A stretch of 64,000 nt of DNA, from NCBI GenBank assembly GCA_029268225.1, contig JAJUGJ010000002.1, forward strand, positions 1 to 64,000, written 5' to 3'. The number at the start of each line of letters is the position of its first letter. Within the stretch, counting starts at the first letter, position 1. The translations under genes were made by a program, and so were the position numbers. Shown in pieces: positions 21,383 through 41,770 of the stretch. The notes below the pieces were generated by a model, which ran no database searches, was not told where the DNA came from, and worked only from the letters and a program-made list of their open reading frames with translations. This DNA comes from Burkholderiales bacterium (lineage in GTDB: Bacteria; Pseudomonadota; Gammaproteobacteria; Burkholderiales; Burkholderiaceae_C).

Positions 21383-22012
<630 letters not shown>

Positions 22013-22186
22013 GAGGGGCTCATCGGGTTGCGGGGACCGGCGTCCATCGTAGGGGACGTGCCGGCGAGGTGCAACGAGATGAAGCAGGAGGCGTGCCGGG
22101 GGCGGAGTTACAGGCAGCGATGAACAAACGGGGGCGCTCCTACGCACCAAAGTTCGCGCTGGTGCGCGCTAGGTCTCCGTTAGGCA

Positions 22187-22678
22187 TTACCGCCGCTCAG
22201 CGATCACATGCATCAGGACATTGCCATCCATCTGGCACACCAATGCTGCTTCTTTCTTGGGTTCGGGACCTGATAAGAAGACTTCGAGGGTGTAGCACTT
22301 AGCATGTTCAGGCAGTACACCACCTTTGCCCAGTGTTTGCTGGATCAACGTCTGTGCCTTCGTGGACAACCAGGAGCGAGCAGAGTTGTAAAAGAAATCT
22401 GCACTGGTCGCTGACTTCAACTGATCTTTATTGAGATTGACGCCATCAAATTGAGCAACCAAGACTTGAAAATCTTCTGGTCCAGGCACCGAATCGCGTC
22501 CACCCTCAGGCACAGAAAAGACCTCCCAACTGACATGACGGAATGGAAACGGAGTCGCGATAACGGACTGCAGTCCAGCTGCATCCTCTCGATGAGTCAC
22601 AGAGGTCATGCCCATAAGTTGAATTCCTGAATAAATCCCTATACCCACGAGTGCAAGCACCCATGCACTTCGACGCAT
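22187..22678 (-). CDS. Small membrane-anchored or secreted protein, candidate immunity protein
   Basis: 163 residues starting at the ATG at 22678. An N-terminal hydrophobic segment (about 5-22, AWVLALVGIGIYSGIQLMG) looks like a signal anchor or uncleaved signal peptide; the rest is soluble and has two cysteines. I do not recognise the family. Its start overlaps the stop of the upstream gene as TGATG, so the two are translationally coupled. Being last in the order vgrG, unknown, small exported protein, it fits an immunity protein protecting the periplasm. GC content is lower than in its surroundings (30 of 60 bases from 22201). The assignment is positional, not from homology. Confidence 0.6.
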   Translation of the reverse strand: MRRSAWVLALVGIGIYSGIQLMGMTSVTHREDAAGLQSVIATPFPFRHVSWEVFSVPEGGRDSVPGPEDFQVLVAQFDGVNLNKDQLKSATSADFFYNSARSWLSTKAQTLIQQTLGKGGVLPEHAKCYTLEVFLSGPEPKKEAALVCQMDGNVLMHVIAERR

Positions 22679-23493
22679 CAACGTCTCCCTTCAGCAGGCA
22701 GAGATGTGACTTGACCCACATCAGCGCCACGAGCTTCAAGCTTTAGGGTGGTGGGCTTGCCCTTCAACCAGGACACTGAACGGGTTGCGCGGCCAAAATT
22801 CATGTACTGATGAGCCAAGCCGCATAGCTCAAAACGCCCATTGGCAGAGTCCGGAATACCCGTCGCGATATCTTTAGCTCCCGGGTTGAAGTTGTATCGG
22901 TCTTCGGCATGGATGGTGATGTCAGCACGCATCCGGATATCTTCACCACTCACTTCTGCGATCACCGATGCGCTCACCCAAAATACATGTTGTCCCAATG
23001 CCTTGGTCCAATTTTCAGTGACCGGGTGCGGAGCAAACTTGCCGGGGCCAACTCCGAAAGCTGTGCTGGTCACAGAGAATACCGTTCGGTTCTCTCCGAT
23101 TGCCTCAGCGTGGTGCACGAAGTCTTCCATGAGCAGCGCAATCAGTCGCTCACCTGCAGGGTCAGTCTTGAGGTACTTCTCATAGTCAACCAGGCGATCT
23201 TGACCCTTGCCGTAGAGAAAGTGCCGATAGGCCGCGTGAGCATCCAGCAGGTGTGGCCGGAGTGCCTCTGATCCCTCAAGCCCGACAATCCACCCTGCCA
23301 GTGCAGCACGGTCTTGCGCAGTTGCTTCTCGGAGAGCGTACTTATCCAGATGGCCATTGTCATGTTTGATAGGAGGCCGAACGGCTTCGCCGAGGCGGTA
23401 TCTGCCTGACTCAGTGACCATGCGCACCTGGACAGAGTGATCGGTTTTGCCACTCCCCTCGCTCATCAAAACTTTGAAAGGATTGTTCTTGCT
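22678..23493 (-). CDS. Unknown protein downstream of vgrG, candidate type VI secretion effector
   Basis: 271 residues starting at the ATG at 23493, four bases after the vgrG stop, with AAAGG seven bases upstream inside the vgrG end. There is no signal peptide or membrane segment, as expected for cargo loaded on VgrG. The most motif-like part is near the C terminus: RYNFNPGAKDIATG, then ANGRFELCGLAHQYMNFG. I cannot name the family or a catalytic site. It is followed, with overlapping stop and start codons, by a small exported protein. Its base composition (34 of 60 G+C from 22921) is below that of the vgrG core, suggesting transfer as a cargo module. It could instead be an adaptor. Confidence 0.6.
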   Translation of the reverse strand, partial: SKNNPFKVLMSEGSGKTDHSVQVRMVTESGRYRLGEAVRPPIKHDNGHLDKYALREATAQDRAALAGWIVGLEGSEALRPHLLDAHAAYRHFLYGKGQDRLVDYEKYLKTDPAGERLIALLMEDFVHHAEAIGENRTVFSVTSTAFGVGPGKFAPHPVTENWTKALGQHVFWVSASVIAEVSGEDIRMRADITIHAEDRYNFNPGAKDIATGIPDSANGRFELCGLAHQYMNFGRATRSVSWLKGKPTTLKLEARGADVGQVTSLPAEGRR

Positions 23494-23497
23494 CATC

Positions 23498-26482
23498 TCA
23501 AACCTTTGACCGCAGAACCAACGCTTGGTGCCCCAATGAAATTGATGCGTGCTGTTGAACATCGGCACTTGCAACGTCGGTGAATCCATCAGGGTCTGAA
23601 TCACCGTAGTAAACCACCCCGGAGTCAGTTCTGATGAAGTACGGCACGCCACAAAGAGGCTCACCTGTGGATTCATCTATCAAGCGAAACCGACGCTGAA
23701 AGAGCGATACAGCACCAGCAGGCAGTGGCTTGAAACTCGCGGCCCGACCCCCCCCTCCACTCCAATCATGACTCGCCCCCTTCACCGTCCACGTCCCCGG
23801 GCAGGTGAAGGTGATGTTGCCGCCCTCGATGACGATCTGGCTTTGCCCCGCTGTCAACGTGATGCTCTTGCTTGCCTGAATGCGGATCTCATCTGTGGTG
23901 CTTTGTACCGTCAGGTCCTTCTCGCTCCAGATCTGCTGGGCATCGGTGTGGGCGCGCAAGCTCAGGCCCGCATTGGCGGTGATGGCCTTGATGCCACCTG
24001 CGTGGGTGTACAGGCTGGTGGTCTGCCCGCTGACGGCGCTGAAACTGTGCGCGCTGGTGCTGTGCACATCGCCCTGGGCGCTCAACGACGTGTCTTCGCC
24101 GCTGAACAGATGAATGCTGGTGGGCGTTACGAAGCTGGCACTCACCGGGGTGTCCAGGTGCAGCAGGGGCTGGGCAAAACGCTCGACCGGGTCGGTGAGG
24201 GTGCGACCCTGGGCCTTCTTGGCCTCCTGTCCACCCACGCTGCCTTCATAGCGGCCTTGCGCCTGCGGGTCCATCTGCTCGGCATGGTGCTGCCAGGCTT
24301 GCGCGCCGTCGTGGCTGCTCAGGCCATGAGCTCCTTGCTGGCGGGCGCTCTGGCTCAGGGCCTCGCCCAGTTGGCGGGCGGCTTTGAGTTGCGCCGCGGC
24401 TTCGGCGGCGTCCATCTGGGTGCTGGCCACGCTGGCACCCATGGTTGGGCGGCTGCTGGTGGTCAGCAACAGTCCTTGGGCGGCGCGCACCACGGCCCAG
24501 CCATCGGTGGCGCCATAAAAGCCCGAGCCCAGCCATTGACCGCGCTGGGCGTGGCCCTGGCCGCCGTGTCCGCTGTGCTGGATCAGGTGACCCAGGCTCA
24601 GCTCACTCCAGCCGGTGGCGGCGCTGTGGCTGGCCAGGCGCATGCGCAACTGGCCGGTGGCATCGTCGATCAGCCATTGGTTGGCGCCTTGGCCGTCCAG
24701 GTGCGGGCTGTGCCAGCCTGAGACGGTGCCGGGGTGGTTGGCGGCCGCGTCCACGCCCGCAGGCCAAGGCAGGTCGTGCTGGCCGTTGTGCAACTGGCCG
24801 ACCACGATGGGACGGTCGATGTCGCCGTCCACAAAGTCCACCAGCACCTCGGTGCCGACACGCGGCGTGAACACCGCGCCCCAGTTGGGGCCGGCCACGC
24901 TTTGCGCCACGCGCACCCAGGTGCCGCTGCGCGCGTTGCCCGGTGCATGGCCGGTTTCGGCGCCGGTGGGCGTGGTGGGTGCATTCAATCCGCCGGGCAG
25001 GGGCGTGGCTCCGCGCTGCCAGCCAAACTGGATGCGGATGCGGCCGTCGCGGTCGGTGGTCAGCGGCTCGCCTTCGGCGGCCACCACGGTGGCGGTTTGC
25101 AGGCCGGGGGCGGTGGGGCGGTCCAGCAGTGGCGGGACCAGGCGGGCGGTGGCCGGCACCGCCTGGAAATGGTTGCGGTAGCTGCCCTGCTCGATGTCGG
25201 TGGCAAGCAGGATCTGGGCGGCTTGGCTGCCCAGGTTGTTGGCGGTCTCGTGGGTCACACGCAGCACCACAAAACGGTTGGCGCCCGATGCCAGCGCATC
25301 GGGGCCGTAGAGACTGTGCTCGGTCAGCGCGAAGTGCGCCCCTTCGTGCAGCGCGCGCACGGCACTGCGGCCTTCGGCAAAGCGGTGCTTCAGGGTATGG
25401 GCGGCCAGGCGAGTTTCGGCTCGCGCCTCGGCCACGCTGCGGCTGCCAGGCTGGGCGGTGTCCACGCGGCCATCGGCATGGCGGCGCTCGCCGTGGCCCC
25501 GGTAGTCCTCCAGCACGGGCACCTCACCGTGGTTGGCCATGCTGCGCGCATCGGCGGCCACACCGGCCAGTTGGCGTTCATCCCAGGCGGCCAGGGTCAC
25601 GGCGTTGGGCGTGAGCTGCTGACCCACCTGCCAGGCGGTCACGGTGTCTTGCGCCAGGGCTGTGTCGAACAGGCCCGTGCCCAGCACCCCGGCGCCGCGC
25701 ATGTCGGGGCGGCTGAAGCGCAGCGGGCCCAGGTCGGGCACTTCAGCCTGGGTGTCGAACACCACCAGGGTGTGACGGGCGGCGCGGGCACCGGTCACGG
25801 CGCCTTGCGAGGCACCGCTGTGCGACAGGCGCCAGCTCCAGCCTTCTTCGGCCATCAGGCGCTGCACAAAGTCCCAGTCGGTTTCCCGGTACTGGGTGGT
25901 GATGGCCCGCACCGGGCCGGGCGCGGCCACGTCGAGCTTGAAGTTCGCCTGCGGGTAGGCCGACAGCACGCTGCTCACGATGTCGGCGGCGGTCTGGTCC
26001 TGAAAGATACGGGTGTCGCGACGCAGCGTGAGCCAGTGCGTCCACGCCGCCAAGGTCAGGCGGTAGCGGGCCAGCCCGCCGTCGGCGCCCAGTTGTGCGG
26101 CCTTGACCACATAGCCGTGCCAGGCGCGCCAACTGCCATCGGCCCGCATCAGGCTCAGGGTGACCTGCTCGCCATTGAGGGCCTTGAGCTCCAGCAAGGC
26201 ATGGGTGCTGACGCAATCGACCTCGGCCCACAGGGGCTCGGCGGCGTGCACCGCCTCGGTGATGCGGCAGCGCTCGACCACCAGCGAGGCCGAGGGCAAG
26301 GCGGTTTCGATTTGCAGCAGGCGAGTGGATTGGCCCAGGGTGAGCGCGGCCTGCAGACGCGAGGTCAAGGACGCGCTCAGCTCAGCCGTCTGGGCCGATG
26401 CCGTGGCGGCCGCGGCCGACGCCAGCGACTGCAGGGACGCGCCAGTGCGCGCCCCCACCTCACCGAGGGACGGGAAACTCAT
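23498..26482 (-). CDS. vgrG: Type VI secretion tip protein VgrG with C-terminal extension
   Basis: 994 residues. The gp27/phage-D-like base spans about 60-480, followed by the gp5 OB-fold with VVAAEGEPLTTDRDGRIRIQFGW and WVRVAQSVAGPNWGAVFTPRVGTEVLVDF. A DUF2345 region and beta-helix follow (about 640-890). From about 907 a tail begins after GASHDWSGGGG: FRLIDESTGEPLCGVPYF with GYSDPDG-like turns, resembling the small beta-sandwich extensions that carry effectors. The tail is less GC-rich than the core. No other T6SS structural genes are in the window, so this is an orphan vgrG island whose apparatus must be encoded elsewhere. Confidence 0.92.
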   Translation of the reverse strand: MSFPSLGEVGARTGASLQSLASAAAATASAQTAELSASLTSRLQAALTLGQSTRLLQIETALPSASLVVERCRITEAVHAAEPLWAEVDCVSTHALLELKALNGEQVTLSLMRADGSWRAWHGYVVKAAQLGADGGLARYRLTLAAWTHWLTLRRDTRIFQDQTAADIVSSVLSAYPQANFKLDVAAPGPVRAITTQYRETDWDFVQRLMAEEGWSWRLSHSGASQGAVTGARAARHTLVVFDTQAEVPDLGPLRFSRPDMRGAGVLGTGLFDTALAQDTVTAWQVGQQLTPNAVTLAAWDERQLAGVAADARSMANHGEVPVLEDYRGHGERRHADGRVDTAQPGSRSVAEARAETRLAAHTLKHRFAEGRSAVRALHEGAHFALTEHSLYGPDALASGANRFVVLRVTHETANNLGSQAAQILLATDIEQGSYRNHFQAVPATARLVPPLLDRPTAPGLQTATVVAAEGEPLTTDRDGRIRIQFGWQRGATPLPGGLNAPTTPTGAETGHAPGNARSGTWVRVAQSVAGPNWGAVFTPRVGTEVLVDFVDGDIDRPIVVGQLHNGQHDLPWPAGVDAAANHPGTVSGWHSPHLDGQGANQWLIDDATGQLRMRLASHSAATGWSELSLGHLIQHSGHGGQGHAQRGQWLGSGFYGATDGWAVVRAAQGLLLTTSSRPTMGASVASTQMDAAEAAAQLKAARQLGEALSQSARQQGAHGLSSHDGAQAWQHHAEQMDPQAQGRYEGSVGGQEAKKAQGRTLTDPVERFAQPLLHLDTPVSASFVTPTSIHLFSGEDTSLSAQGDVHSTSAHSFSAVSGQTTSLYTHAGGIKAITANAGLSLRAHTDAQQIWSEKDLTVQSTTDEIRIQASKSITLTAGQSQIVIEGGNITFTCPGTWTVKGASHDWSGGGGRAASFKPLPAGAVSLFQRRFRLIDESTGEPLCGVPYFIRTDSGVVYYGDSDPDGFTDVASADVQQHASISLGHQALVLRSKV

Positions 26483-38391: not shown

Positions 38392-40629
38392 TCAGATGGA
38401 CAGCGGATCGACGTCCACCGCCCAGCGGATCAGCCCGCTGCGACGGTGCTGCTGAGCCAGGCTGAACCAGGTGGCCTGTGCCGCGGACAAGAAGCGCTGC
38501 AGCGGGACCCGCTGGGCGCTTTCGATCATCAACTGGGCCCGCTCGACATTGGCCACGCGCTGCACCGGCGTGGGCACGGCCGGATACAAGGTGATGCCCG
38601 CCGCCTGCGCCTCTGCCATCACGGCCTGCGCGGCGGCTTCCAGAAAGCCCTGCGCCGCCTCCTGCGTCTTGCCCTCGGCGCGCAGCATGGCCAGGTGAGC
38701 GTAGGGCGGCAGACCCGCCATCTCGCGTTCTTTGAGCTGCTGCGCGGCAAAGTCCGCGAAGTCGTACTTGCGCAGCGCCTGGTAGAGCGGATGCGTGGGG
38801 TGCCAGGTCTGCACCCACATCTCGCTGCGCCCGGCCACCTCGGCATCGCGACCGGCCCGGCCAGCTGCCTGCAGCAGCAGCGCAAACTGGCGCTCGGCGG
38901 CGCGGAAGTCACTGGCAAACAAGGCGGCATCGGGGTTGATGGCCGCCACCAGCGTGATACGGCGGAAGTCGTGTCCCTTGGCCACCATCTGCGTGCCCAC
39001 CAGCACGTCCACCTCCCCGGCATGCACGCTGGCCAGTTGCTCCTCCAGCGCCCCCTTGTGGCGGGTCACATCGGCGTCGATGCGGCCCACGCGGGCGCCG
39101 GGCAGGACCTCGGCCAGCTGCTCTTCCAGACGCTCGGTGCCGCGGCCCACGGGCGCGATGTCCTGGTTGCCGCAGTCCGGGCAGGCGCGCGGCACCCGTT
39201 CGGAAAAGCCGCAGTGGTGGCAGCGCAGGGTGCGGTCGGCCTTGTGGAACACGCGCCAGGCGCTGCAATGCGGGCAGCCGCTCTTCCAGCCGCAGTCGCT
39301 GCAATGGAGTACCGGCGCGTAGCCACGGCGGTTGAGCAGCACCAGGCTTTGCTCGCCCCGCTCGATGCGCTGGGTGATGGCCGCCAGCAGTTCGCGCGCA
39401 AACGGGGGCTGATCCTGGCCCATGGTGGGGCGCAGCAGACGGGACTGGTCGAGCAGGCGCACCTGCGGCATGTCGCCTGCACCAATGCGCGAAGGCATGG
39501 CCAGGCGCACGTAGCGGCCGGCGCCGCCTTCGGCCACCGGCAGCGCGTTGTACCAGCTCTCCAGGCTGGGCGTGGCCGAGCCGAGGATGATGGGCACCTG
39601 CTCCAGCTTGGCGCGGTAGATGGCCAGGTCGCGGGCCGAGTAGCGCGCACCGTCTTGCTGCTTGTAGCTGGGGTCGTGTTCTTCGTCGACGACGATGAGA
39701 CCCAGGCGGGGCAGCGGCGTGAACACCGACAGGCGCGTGCCCAGGATCAGGTCGGCATGACCGGTGTGCGCCATCAACCAGTGGCGCAGGCGTTGAGCTG
39801 GTGTCAGACCACTGTGCAACGACACGATGCGTCGGCCCGCGAAGCGCTCGGCCACGCGGGATTCGAGCTGCGGCGTCAGGTTGATCTCGGGCACCATCAT
39901 CAGCACCTGCTGGCCCGCGTCCAGCGCACGCTGGGCCTGGCGCAGGTAGACCTCGGTCTTGCCGCTGCCGGTGCTGCCCCACAGCAGATAGGGCTGGTCG
40001 CCGCCCTCGGCCAGTCGGTCGAGCACGGCCTGCTGCTCGGCCGTCAAGGTCGGCAAGACAGACACCTGCGGCGGGGCCGGGTCAGGCACGGTGCCTGGCG
40101 AGGGCGAAGTGGCCTCCTGCGGCACGTCCGATGAGGTCATCGACTCTGACAGACGAACTGCGGCCTTGGCCCGGGCGCGCTTGGGCTTGGCTGCCGGCGG
40201 CGACACCTCCTTGTCCAGGCGCTTGAGTCGGCGCCCCCACTGGGTGGCATCAAGCTGACGCAGCTCGGGCGGCAACACCATCAGCGCCATCTCTCCCAGA
40301 CTGCGCTGGTAATAGGCAGCGGCGAAACGCACCAGTTGGCGCCAGGCAGTCGGCAAGGGGGGCAGGCCATCGAGCACCTCGGCCACTTCCTTGAGCTGGG
40401 CAGGGTCGACCGTGGCATCCGGGGCCACCTCGTCTCCCCCCCACCAGACCACGCCGGTGACCACACGCCGCCCAAAGGGCACACGCACCAGGGTGCCTGC
40501 TGGCAAGGGCCGATCACACAGGTAATCCAGAGGCCCCCACAGGCCCGCATGCTGCGGCGCCTCGACCACGACGCCCAGGCGGTGCAACAAAGGGGTGTCA
40601 GGGGAGGCGGAGACAGGCATGAAGGGCAT
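38392..40629 (-). CDS. priA: Primosomal replication restart helicase PriA
   Basis: 745 residues from the ATG at 40629 (another ATG is three codons in; neither has a strong ribosome binding site). An N-terminal 3' DNA-binding domain is followed by a basic linker (KPKRARAK) and the helicase: Walker A WGSTGSGKTEVY, the DEEH box, LGSATPSLESW, then a zinc region with CSDCGWKSGCPHC and CHHCGFSERVPRACPDCG. The motif LQAAGRAGR is intact. It restarts stalled forks. It is the gene next to the candidate origin region. Confidence 0.96.
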   Translation of the reverse strand: MPFMPVSASPDTPLLHRLGVVVEAPQHAGLWGPLDYLCDRPLPAGTLVRVPFGRRVVTGVVWWGGDEVAPDATVDPAQLKEVAEVLDGLPPLPTAWRQLVRFAAAYYQRSLGEMALMVLPPELRQLDATQWGRRLKRLDKEVSPPAAKPKRARAKAAVRLSESMTSSDVPQEATSPSPGTVPDPAPPQVSVLPTLTAEQQAVLDRLAEGGDQPYLLWGSTGSGKTEVYLRQAQRALDAGQQVLMMVPEINLTPQLESRVAERFAGRRIVSLHSGLTPAQRLRHWLMAHTGHADLILGTRLSVFTPLPRLGLIVVDEEHDPSYKQQDGARYSARDLAIYRAKLEQVPIILGSATPSLESWYNALPVAEGGAGRYVRLAMPSRIGAGDMPQVRLLDQSRLLRPTMGQDQPPFARELLAAITQRIERGEQSLVLLNRRGYAPVLHCSDCGWKSGCPHCSAWRVFHKADRTLRCHHCGFSERVPRACPDCGNQDIAPVGRGTERLEEQLAEVLPGARVGRIDADVTRHKGALEEQLASVHAGEVDVLVGTQMVAKGHDFRRITLVAAINPDAALFASDFRAAERQFALLLQAAGRAGRDAEVAGRSEMWVQTWHPTHPLYQALRKYDFADFAAQQLKEREMAGLPPYAHLAMLRAEGKTQEAAQGFLEAAAQAVMAEAQAAGITLYPAVPTPVQRVANVERAQLMIESAQRVPLQRFLSAAQATWFSLAQQHRRSGLIRWAVDVDPLSI

Positions 40630-41470
40630 CAGAGTGGCTGAGATTTTGACAGATCCCTGAACTTGCGCCCGCAAGTGCTTGATTCGCAAAGGCCATTCAG
40701 GCCCCGCACCCAAGTTGTGGATAACTTTGTGGGGAATTCAGACATACCACAGTCTGGAATGCCTCAAGGTGGGGCTTGACGTGGAAGCACCCCCATCCAC
40801 AACACATGAAGCTCAACCCAGACAAATCAATGACTTAGATGAATTTGGCATTTTTTTCAAAGCATGGCGCCGCTCACGGCCCCGCCTGGCACACGCCCCC
40901 CTCAGGGTGGGGATAACTTTCCCCTCGCATGTGCAAAACCCGGGATTGCCCCAGTTGGCAGGCCACCCCCTCGCGGTTCTCACGCAGATCACCTCGGTCG
41001 CCTCGATTCGGGGAATCGGACACGTTGACGCGCACGCTTCCTCACTTGCCCACGGGTCCCAAAGTGGCACTCGACAAACAAGCCGTAAGTGCCTGATTCA
41101 TAAGCGCACCGCACTTACCCACAATTTCTGTGGATAACTTTGTGGGCAAACCATGCACAGTTGCGCTAAGTGCTTGTCGGGGCGTGGCTTACCCGGCCCT
41201 GCCCAGCTTTTCATCATGGCCACATAAGCCATGTGAATCAATCACTTACGACACAAACACGTGTTTGGCGCCAGACGTTGACGCGCATCAGAGACTGCGT
41301 CAGTCGCTCGCACTTTTGTGGGGATAACTGGGGGCTGCTAACACAGAATTCGCCCCGTTTCGGGGCAAAAGTGGCCGCGGATTTGTGTTAGCCCTGCCGC
41401 ATCCCCAGGCCGTGGCACCGCAATTCAGGGGAGGGTAAACCTTACCAATACGTCAAGACGCTTCCAGAGG
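40630..41470. other. Candidate chromosomal replication origin (DnaA-box cluster)
   Basis: About 930 gene-free bases lie between priA and the next gene. Perfect DnaA boxes TGTGGATAA are at 40716-40724 and 41129-41137. One-mismatch boxes are at 40908-40916, 41115-41123 and 41319-41327. An AT-rich stretch (about 40825-40865, with a T7 run) could be the unwinding element. Other short repeats with AAGTGC cores lie in both orientations, including an inverted pair GTAAGTGC/GCACTTAC at 41085-41118. A perfect inverted repeat GCCCCG/CGGGGC is at 41352-41366. No open frame here looks coding. dnaA is not in the window, so this may be an origin apart from dnaA or a DnaA-titrating site. Confidence 0.5.
40716..41146. 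repeat. Direct repeat carrying DnaA boxes (two 18-base copies)
   Basis: TGTGGATAACTTTGTGGG occurs at 40716-40733 and again, identically, at 41129-41146. A related form with TGGGGATAACTTT is at 40908. A second repeat, AAGTGCTTGATTC (40673-40685), recurs as AAGTGCCTGATTC (41087-41099). Confidence 0.8.
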
Positions 41471-41557
41471 ATGTATGCTTGTCAACGTGCCCGTTCTGGT
41501 CGCCTTTTGACCCTTGTGGGGCGCCTCTTCATTACCCTTTTCTTTGTGAGACACGCA

Positions 41558-41770
41558 ATGAGCTTCTCGATCGAATCCAAACTCGGCGACCTGCTGGACA
41601 ACGAAACCACCAAGGCCATCCTGGAAAAGCACATGCCCGGCATCTCCACCCACCCGCAAATCGGCATGGGCAAGGGTTTCGCCCTGTCGATGGTGGCCAA
41701 GTTCTCCGGTGGCCTGATCACCGAAGACATCCTGGCCAAGGTCAACGAAGAGCTGGCCGCTCTGGGCTGA
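41558..41770 (+). CDS. Small conserved protein of unknown function
   Basis: 70 residues from the ATG at 41558, beginning SFSIESKLGDLLDNETTKAI. It is helical and soluble, with a central HMPGISTHPQIGMGKG segment. I have the impression of a widespread small domain of this pattern, seen alone or attached to esterases, but cannot name it. It is followed by a good terminator and then by a secreted esterase gene. It is the first gene after the candidate origin and may be strongly expressed given its own terminator. Confidence 0.75.
   Translation: MSFSIESKLGDLLDNETTKAILEKHMPGISTHPQIGMGKGFALSMVAKFSGGLITEDILAKVNEELAALG

Follow-up and report, generated by a model that had tools for sequence, protein, structure and literature searches.

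Tandem putative DARS2-type DnaA-reactivating elements upstream of priA in a Burkholderiales bacterium

A dense cluster of DnaA boxes lying next to priA and far from dnaA raises the question of whether it marks a replication origin or another kind of site at which DnaA is controlled. The window analysed here is a whole stretch of 64,000 nucleotides (bases 1-64000 of contig C2, 237,529 bp) from a draft assembly of 3.54 Mb in 64 contigs. A first-pass annotation had described some 930 gene-free bases holding two perfect boxes in identical 18-base repeats, three one-mismatch boxes, an AT-rich stretch and AAGTGC repeats in both orientations, and all of these were recovered. The perfect boxes (TTATCCACA) were located at 40716-40724 and 41129-41137, both on the minus strand and both within an identical repeat, TGTGGATAACTTTGTGGG (repeat family D3); the one-mismatch boxes were found at 40908 (minus), 41115 (plus) and 41319 (minus). 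The 931 bases of the gap (40630-41560) displayed 55.5 % GC versus 66.4 % window-wide, with a 60-mer minimum of 35 % near 40800. AAGTGC occurred three times, twice within IHF-like sites, and GCACTT occurred twice. Five boxes with at most one mismatch, two of them perfect, compare with a shuffle mean of 0.16, and none of 3000 dinucleotide shuffles reached either five such boxes or two perfect ones.

The gene adjoining the gap was recognised as priA by NCBIfam NF004067 (above cut-off) and by the Pfam domains PriA_3primeBD and PriA_C. Its start on the minus strand lies near 40620-40629, and its closest relative found came from an Aquabacterium genome assembled from a metagenome, the best protein segment being 91 % identical. 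The next likely gene past the gap was a 69-aa frame at 41561, which matched no Pfam or NCBIfam family and is included in a 99-aa frame starting from 41471. Neither the latter nor a 152-aa frame at 40679-41137 matched Pfam or NCBIfam at E 0.1, and a search of the whole window with Rfam at gathering scores returned two tRNA matches and nothing else. Elsewhere in the window, GC content fell to 55.6 % at 22001-24000 versus ~66 % around it, a possible foreign segment.

The cluster proved to consist of two tandem copies of one module, unit A being farther from priA and unit B next to it. Each module starts with a distal DnaA-type box, followed after ~79 bp by an inverted IHF-like site and after another ~110 bp by a three-box core, with boxes at offsets -12, 0 and, inverted, +14. 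The two TTATCCCCA boxes previously listed as one-mismatch boxes are the left ends of the two modules and lie 190 and 192 bp from a perfect box, an arrangement which the first-pass annotation had overlooked. Features are listed below; box scores are given as matches out of nine, and IHF-like sites refer to the consensus WATCAANNNNTTR (PMC4585315).

38392..40620, minus: priA (primosomal protein N'), downstream of both units
40672..40684, minus: unit B second IHF-like site AATCAAGCACTTG, full consensus
40702..40710, plus: unit B place of core box I, degraded (3/9)
40716..40724, minus: unit B core box II TTATCCACA, perfect
40728..40736, minus: unit B core box III (7/9)
40825..40837, plus: unit B IHF-like site AATCAATGACTTA, full consensus, inverted, offset -113
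40908..40916, minus: unit B distal DnaA-type box TTATCCCCA, 192 bp from the core box
41086..41098, minus: unit A second IHF-like site AATCAGGCACTTA, one mismatch, offset +39
41115..41123, plus: unit A core box I TTACCCACA, inverted, offset +14 (8/9)
41129..41137, minus: unit A core box II TTATCCACA, perfect
41141..41149, minus: unit A core box III, offset -12 (7/9)
41236..41248, plus: unit A IHF-like site AATCAATCACTTA, full match to WATCAANNNNTTR, inverted relative to the unit, offset -111 from the core
41319..41327, minus: unit A distal DnaA-type box TTATCCCCA, 190 bp from the core box; relatives display TTATNCACA here

Two other repeats were noticed around unit A: a 9-bp perfect inverted repeat, GCTAACACA/TGTGTTAGC, with an inner GC-rich hairpin-like stretch at 41337-41392, just outside the unit, and a 13-base direct repeat, ACGTTGACGCGCA, at 41022-41034 and 41275-41287, inside or beside it.

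A chromosome origin, or that of a second replicon, had been suggested in view of the oriC-like parts, although dnaA was not nearby. The gene is indeed absent from the window; it is nevertheless carried by the same contig (C2:136154-137707, minus strand), ~95 kb from the cluster. Cumulative GC skew, computed in 5-kb steps over this one draft contig, was lowest at ~135 kb, adjoining dnaA and not at the cluster, in the vicinity of which only a small local dip appeared (45-50 kb). The 858-bp gap between dnaA and dnaN (C2:135296-136153) harbored IHF-like sites, five TTGTCCACA boxes and, beside CTCTAC(C/T)ACTACAAC, AT-rich tracts resembling DnaA-trios. This content was present in two tandem copies ~370 bp apart, a duplication affecting boxes and AT-rich tracts alike; G401, a relative from the same genus, displayed a single copy. 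The oriC-like region and the cluster share DnaA boxes, an IHF-like AATCAAGCACTTG site and tandem duplication, but the TTGTCCACA boxes, AT-rich tracts and DnaA-trio-like repeats appear to set the former apart. Among eight genomes compared, our own included, related dnaA-dnaN arrangements were encountered in G401, G459, G385, G424 and G428.

What speaks for the cluster as an origin is its content of DnaA boxes, IHF-like sites and one GC-poor patch, the local skew dip, and two relatives, G375 (L133) and G443 (L154), whose dnaA-dnaN gaps measure only ~100-144 bp and lack the oriC-like region of the other genomes, so that their origins may have moved. The sampled skew of G375, although weak, changed sign near dnaA (1.51-1.65 Mb) and not at the priA unit (2.07 Mb); that of G459 was too weak to decide a side. 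The element also turned out to be a conserved chromosomal feature upstream of priA, occurring in two to three copies in some genomes; a locus may have as many as three units, and a genome two such loci. The oriC and second-replicon readings were rejected on the basis of skew, the dnaA-dnaN region and this multiplicity: the cluster is probably not the chromosome origin, and a replication origin of either kind appears very improbable.

Conservation was examined in 80 priA loci from public genomes, 79 of which offered enough upstream sequence; relatives share ancestry, and counts of loci and genomes given here and below are not independent. All 79 testable loci displayed TTATCCCCA upstream of priA, followed 178-199 bp away by TTATCCACA or, in a few, TTTTCCACA or TTGTCCACA. 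Perfect boxes numbered 109 in 117,696 bp of priA-upstream DNA versus none in the remaining 912,262 bp of the same loci. Start-to-start spacings in 80 priA-proximal units (79 loci plus the window) were 178 bp (one unit), 187-192 bp (77 units) and 199 bp (two units). In an alignment of 113 units, bases were poorly conserved between four conserved blocks: TTATCCCCA, AAGTcaTTGATT (inverted IHF consensus), CCCACAAAGTTATCCACAG and AATCAagcACTT (IHF-like). Several units were found at 31 loci, with two in the window and in 28 public loci and three in L061 and L077. Box I reached 7/9 or more in all units of eight of these loci and in some units of the other 23; no locus was devoid of such a unit, a pattern suggestive of selection to retain one or more intact cores.

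The sequence of the distal box was less constant than its place. TTATCCCCA itself deviates from the DnaA consensus. Of 26 further genomes of the family without a match to the TTATCCCCA pattern, 15 displayed the true DnaA consensus boxes TTATGCACA or TTATTCACA at 179, 187-189 or 197-198 bp, one had a core box but no distal box, and ten had no box at all within 1.3 kb upstream of priA. The presence of true consensus boxes at this place indicates that the distal site behaves as a DnaA box. The module pattern was detected in 44 out of 120 genomes of the own family (control: none), and the unit stood directly upstream of priA in 20 of the 22 genomes checked among those 44 using dnaA and priA families. 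Order-wide, the TTATCCCCA pattern was restricted to two of 250 genomes, our own and one from another family (G597), and was absent from the six other own-family genomes of that sample. As judged from these distributions, TTATCCCCA seems largely confined to part of one family, the distal site elsewhere being TTATNCACA.

Scanning all offsets around the perfect box of the 80 priA-proximal units identified -12 on the same strand and +14 on the opposite strand as the top further positions, with mean box scores of 7.46/9 and 6.13/9, respectively, versus a background of 2.47 (sd 0.80). DARS are defined by three boxes at equal spacing, box I being opposed to boxes II and III and its head-to-head contact being essential, according to PMC5742627, PMC10380432 and PMC8682772. 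Three boxes at fixed spacing, with box I opposed to the others, are found in unit A (boxes III, II and I scoring 7, 9 and 8 of 9) and in the average of the 80 units, but not in unit B, where box I retains only 3/9. Like DARS, the cluster is intergenic and away from oriC, no gene being recognised in the gap and dnaA lying ~95 kb off.

Escherichia coli DARS1 reads TAATACACA-TGG-TTATCCACA-GGAAT-AGTGGATAA, a 9-3-9-5-9 layout identical to that of the module core. It differs by its position on the uvrB side and by the lack, in the scanned region, of any site matching the IHF consensus even with one mismatch. A same-strand TTATCCCCA is present 209 bp upstream of its core box (L174:2831, MG1655, upstream of uvrB); being outside the 180-201 bp of the 128 class matches described below, this may be either chance or a relic of a distal box, and it was not used as evidence. 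E. coli DARS2 resembles the module in its opposed boxes I and II with five bps between them, in a likewise oriented IHF-like site, AATCAGAGAATTG, at -109 (-110/-111 in the module), and in an extra same-strand box beyond that site, TTTTCCACA at -127, which by our mapping is probably the published DnaA box V. In contrast to the module, whose distal box lies at 186-193 bp, this far box lies at 127 bp and none is found at 190 bp. Moreover, the DARS2 9-mer at -12 is a poor box (TCTTACACC), although the +14 box is present, and DARS2 adjoins mutH rather than priA or minC.

The IHF-like site was similarly constrained. The best IHF offset in 79 Burkholderiales units was -111, inverted, with a mean of 7.11/9; offset +39, corresponding to the second site of unit A, also ranked high in units from this order. 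Both units of the window display a DARS2-type site at the level of sequence, in the form of the full consensus at -111 and -113. In 30 class units from other families, the best offset was -110, inverted (mean 6.27/9), setting aside a higher score at +1 which stems from overlap with the DnaA box. Outside Burkholderiales, where the IHF site amounts to a mean preference, the lack of a strict consensus near -110 in 12 loci described below indicates a site that is looser or of different sequence. The Fis consensus displayed no consistent offset in nine sequences, by a weak scan that found none in E. coli DARS2 either. In E. coli, DnaA on opposed boxes loses its ADP, IHF bending at a set distance is required for DARS2, and a 5-bp shift of the IHF site is reported to be harmful (PMC4245941).

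The distribution of the module was then considered across the class. With E. coli DARS1 DNA as a query, 19 out of 339 class genomes were matched, 17 of them over 29-38 bp of the core. Of 12 core matches that were fetched, seven, representing six families, displayed a perfect TTATNCACA 190-193 bp upstream on the same strand, and five had no distal box; the strict IHF consensus near -110 was absent from all 12. A first class-wide pattern, CTTATCCCCAN{160,185}ACAAAGTTATCCACA, found nothing in 369 genomes and missed even our own, whose units start with GTTATCCCCA; it was replaced by looser patterns. A free-spacing pattern (180-210 bp) gave 128 matches in 106 out of 369 class genomes (control: none). 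This pattern misses the units of the window, in which box I differs, and three other members of the order in the sample. Because it already demanded the +14 box and the final two bases of the -12 box, finding these in the matches is no new evidence. Spacings were concentrated at 186-193 bp (116 of 128), the others being 180 (three), 183 (one), 196 (one) and 198-201 bp (seven), with none at 202-210 bp. When one unit was retained per family and gene context, 71 out of 80 spacings were of 186-193 bp. The minor peaks are about one helical turn off, although a 13-bp period fits no worse than one of 10.5.

At least 56 of the 128 class units, from 35 of the 63 families, stood directly upstream of priA in the same direction, with a median of ~109 bp from the end of the core to the estimated priA start. 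This figure is a lower bound, obtained with three PriA queries (E 1e-8) on ~1.5 kb of flank at all 128 places. Sixteen units (12 families) were found beside the end of hemW, and 56 were elsewhere or unplaced. Among the latter, eight units from seven families lay near a gene for an L31-type ribosomal protein (one copy checked).

A second location was upstream of minC, on the opposite strand to that gene, in ten of 23 genomes with MinC found; the 28 genomes searched were chosen partly for having a second match, and this fraction is no rate. Six of the ten minC units measured 209 bp end to end instead of 196-199 bp. The minC locus of G445 (L155, 9743-10334) displayed two tandem units of different length, 209 and 196 bp, and in that of G375 (L209) a distal box was paired twice with a core box upstream of the gene, at distances of 188 and 200 bp. 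In our own genome, no box with up to one mismatch was found over the 1.5 kb preceding the MinC_C domain (L203).

Titration or reactivation of DnaA had been the remaining proposals of the first-pass annotation. Of these, reactivation is the best supported, because the core has DARS1 spacing and the IHF-like site sits as in DARS2. We consider it fairly probable that the cluster at 40.67-41.33 kb is a tandem pair of DARS2-type DnaA-reactivating elements, unit A being the intact one. By analogy with the E. coli elements, ADP-DnaA would bind box III and, head to head, boxes I and II, and IHF would bend the DNA at the inverted site ~110 bp upstream of the core. The bend could place DnaA bound to the distal box, at a distance of ~18 helical turns, against the core, and the resulting complex would release ADP, leaving apo-DnaA to take up ATP and to support initiation at oriC in the dnaA-dnaN gap. 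DnaA on the distal box, held against the core across the IHF bend, would be comparable to box V and the Fis sites of DARS2, and could either activate the element or shut it off. At E. coli DARS2, ATP-DnaA is reported to displace Fis and thereby to shut the element off (PMC8682772). Several observations count against a DARS: unit B no longer has an intact box I, described as essential in published work; the Fis sites needed by E. coli DARS2 had no consistent counterpart in the weak scan; and datA, which has the opposite effect, also displays a box-IHF-box order.

That last resemblance makes a datA-like site, where an IHF-bound segment flanked by DnaA boxes would stimulate DnaA-ATP hydrolysis once initiation has occurred, a rival to be weighed. 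E. coli datA resembles the module in that an inverted IHF site lies between two boxes of the same strand, the second of which is paired with an inverted box. It is rather near oriC, and the priA units were 61-562 kb from dnaA in G375, G443, G385, G459, G424 and G428, both being on one contig of at least 3.6 Mb. Its spacing, however, is 162 bp rather than ~190 bp, its inverted partner is at +12 and not at +14, and it acts by ATP hydrolysis and not by exchange; boxes 2 and 3 flanking IHF at datA spacing were not found in the cluster, and positions +14 and -12 match DARS1. A datA-like function is accordingly rated unlikely. A Bac_DnaA profile search of our own genome returned only DnaA and a transposase-helper-like protein; this weak second match (G000:C1:14148-14450, L003) lies next to a transposase-like frame and is presumably an IstB-type transposase helper, not Hda.

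The position of so many units, immediately preceding priA and pointing the same way, would also suit a DnaA- and IHF-controlled promoter region timing priA transcription with the DnaA cycle. The same module is nonetheless found upstream of minC on the opposite strand in ten genomes, as well as at hemW and at other or unassigned places, and simple repression needs neither a nearly fixed long spacing nor a DARS core; we regard this possibility as slightly more doubtful still. Passive titration of DnaA could make use of two perfect boxes and several weaker ones, and duplication would add capacity. The conserved spacing, orientation and IHF site of the module would be unnecessary for titration, which seems improbable.

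Within the open-access literature, no DARS was found described in Burkholderiales, beside priA or with a distal box at 190 bp, and neither the linkage to priA nor a layout in which the distal box lies near 190 bp appears to have been described. Sequences like DARS1 and DARS2 are reported to be conserved in many proteobacterial species (PMC10380432), the spacing of DARS2 core, IHF and Fis sites in beta- or gamma-proteobacteria close to E. coli (PMC5742627), and DARS2 box V in part of the E. coli relatives compared (PMC8682772); such publications may already include some of the present sites. Over and above reactivation at this locus, it is conceivable, though rather less than an even bet, that a DARS device with a distal box ~18 helical turns from its core dates far back in the Gammaproteobacteria (taken to comprise the beta-proteobacteria), its place being next to priA, with occasional copies at minC, hemW and elsewhere. 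Its distal box would close the IHF-bent loop, doing the job of Fis and box V in E. coli DARS2, and the two E. coli elements would have been derived from this general system and moved to other locations.

Reactivation of DnaA is known mainly from E. coli. A signature matching DARS-like sites in 63 families, many of them tied to priA and one group to minC, would make reactivation testable class-wide. It would also help to separate DARS-like sites from true origins in origin prediction, the cluster being an example of how a group of DnaA boxes can mimic oriC. Finally, the linkage to priA and minC raises the question of whether control of initiation is coupled to replication restart and division placement.
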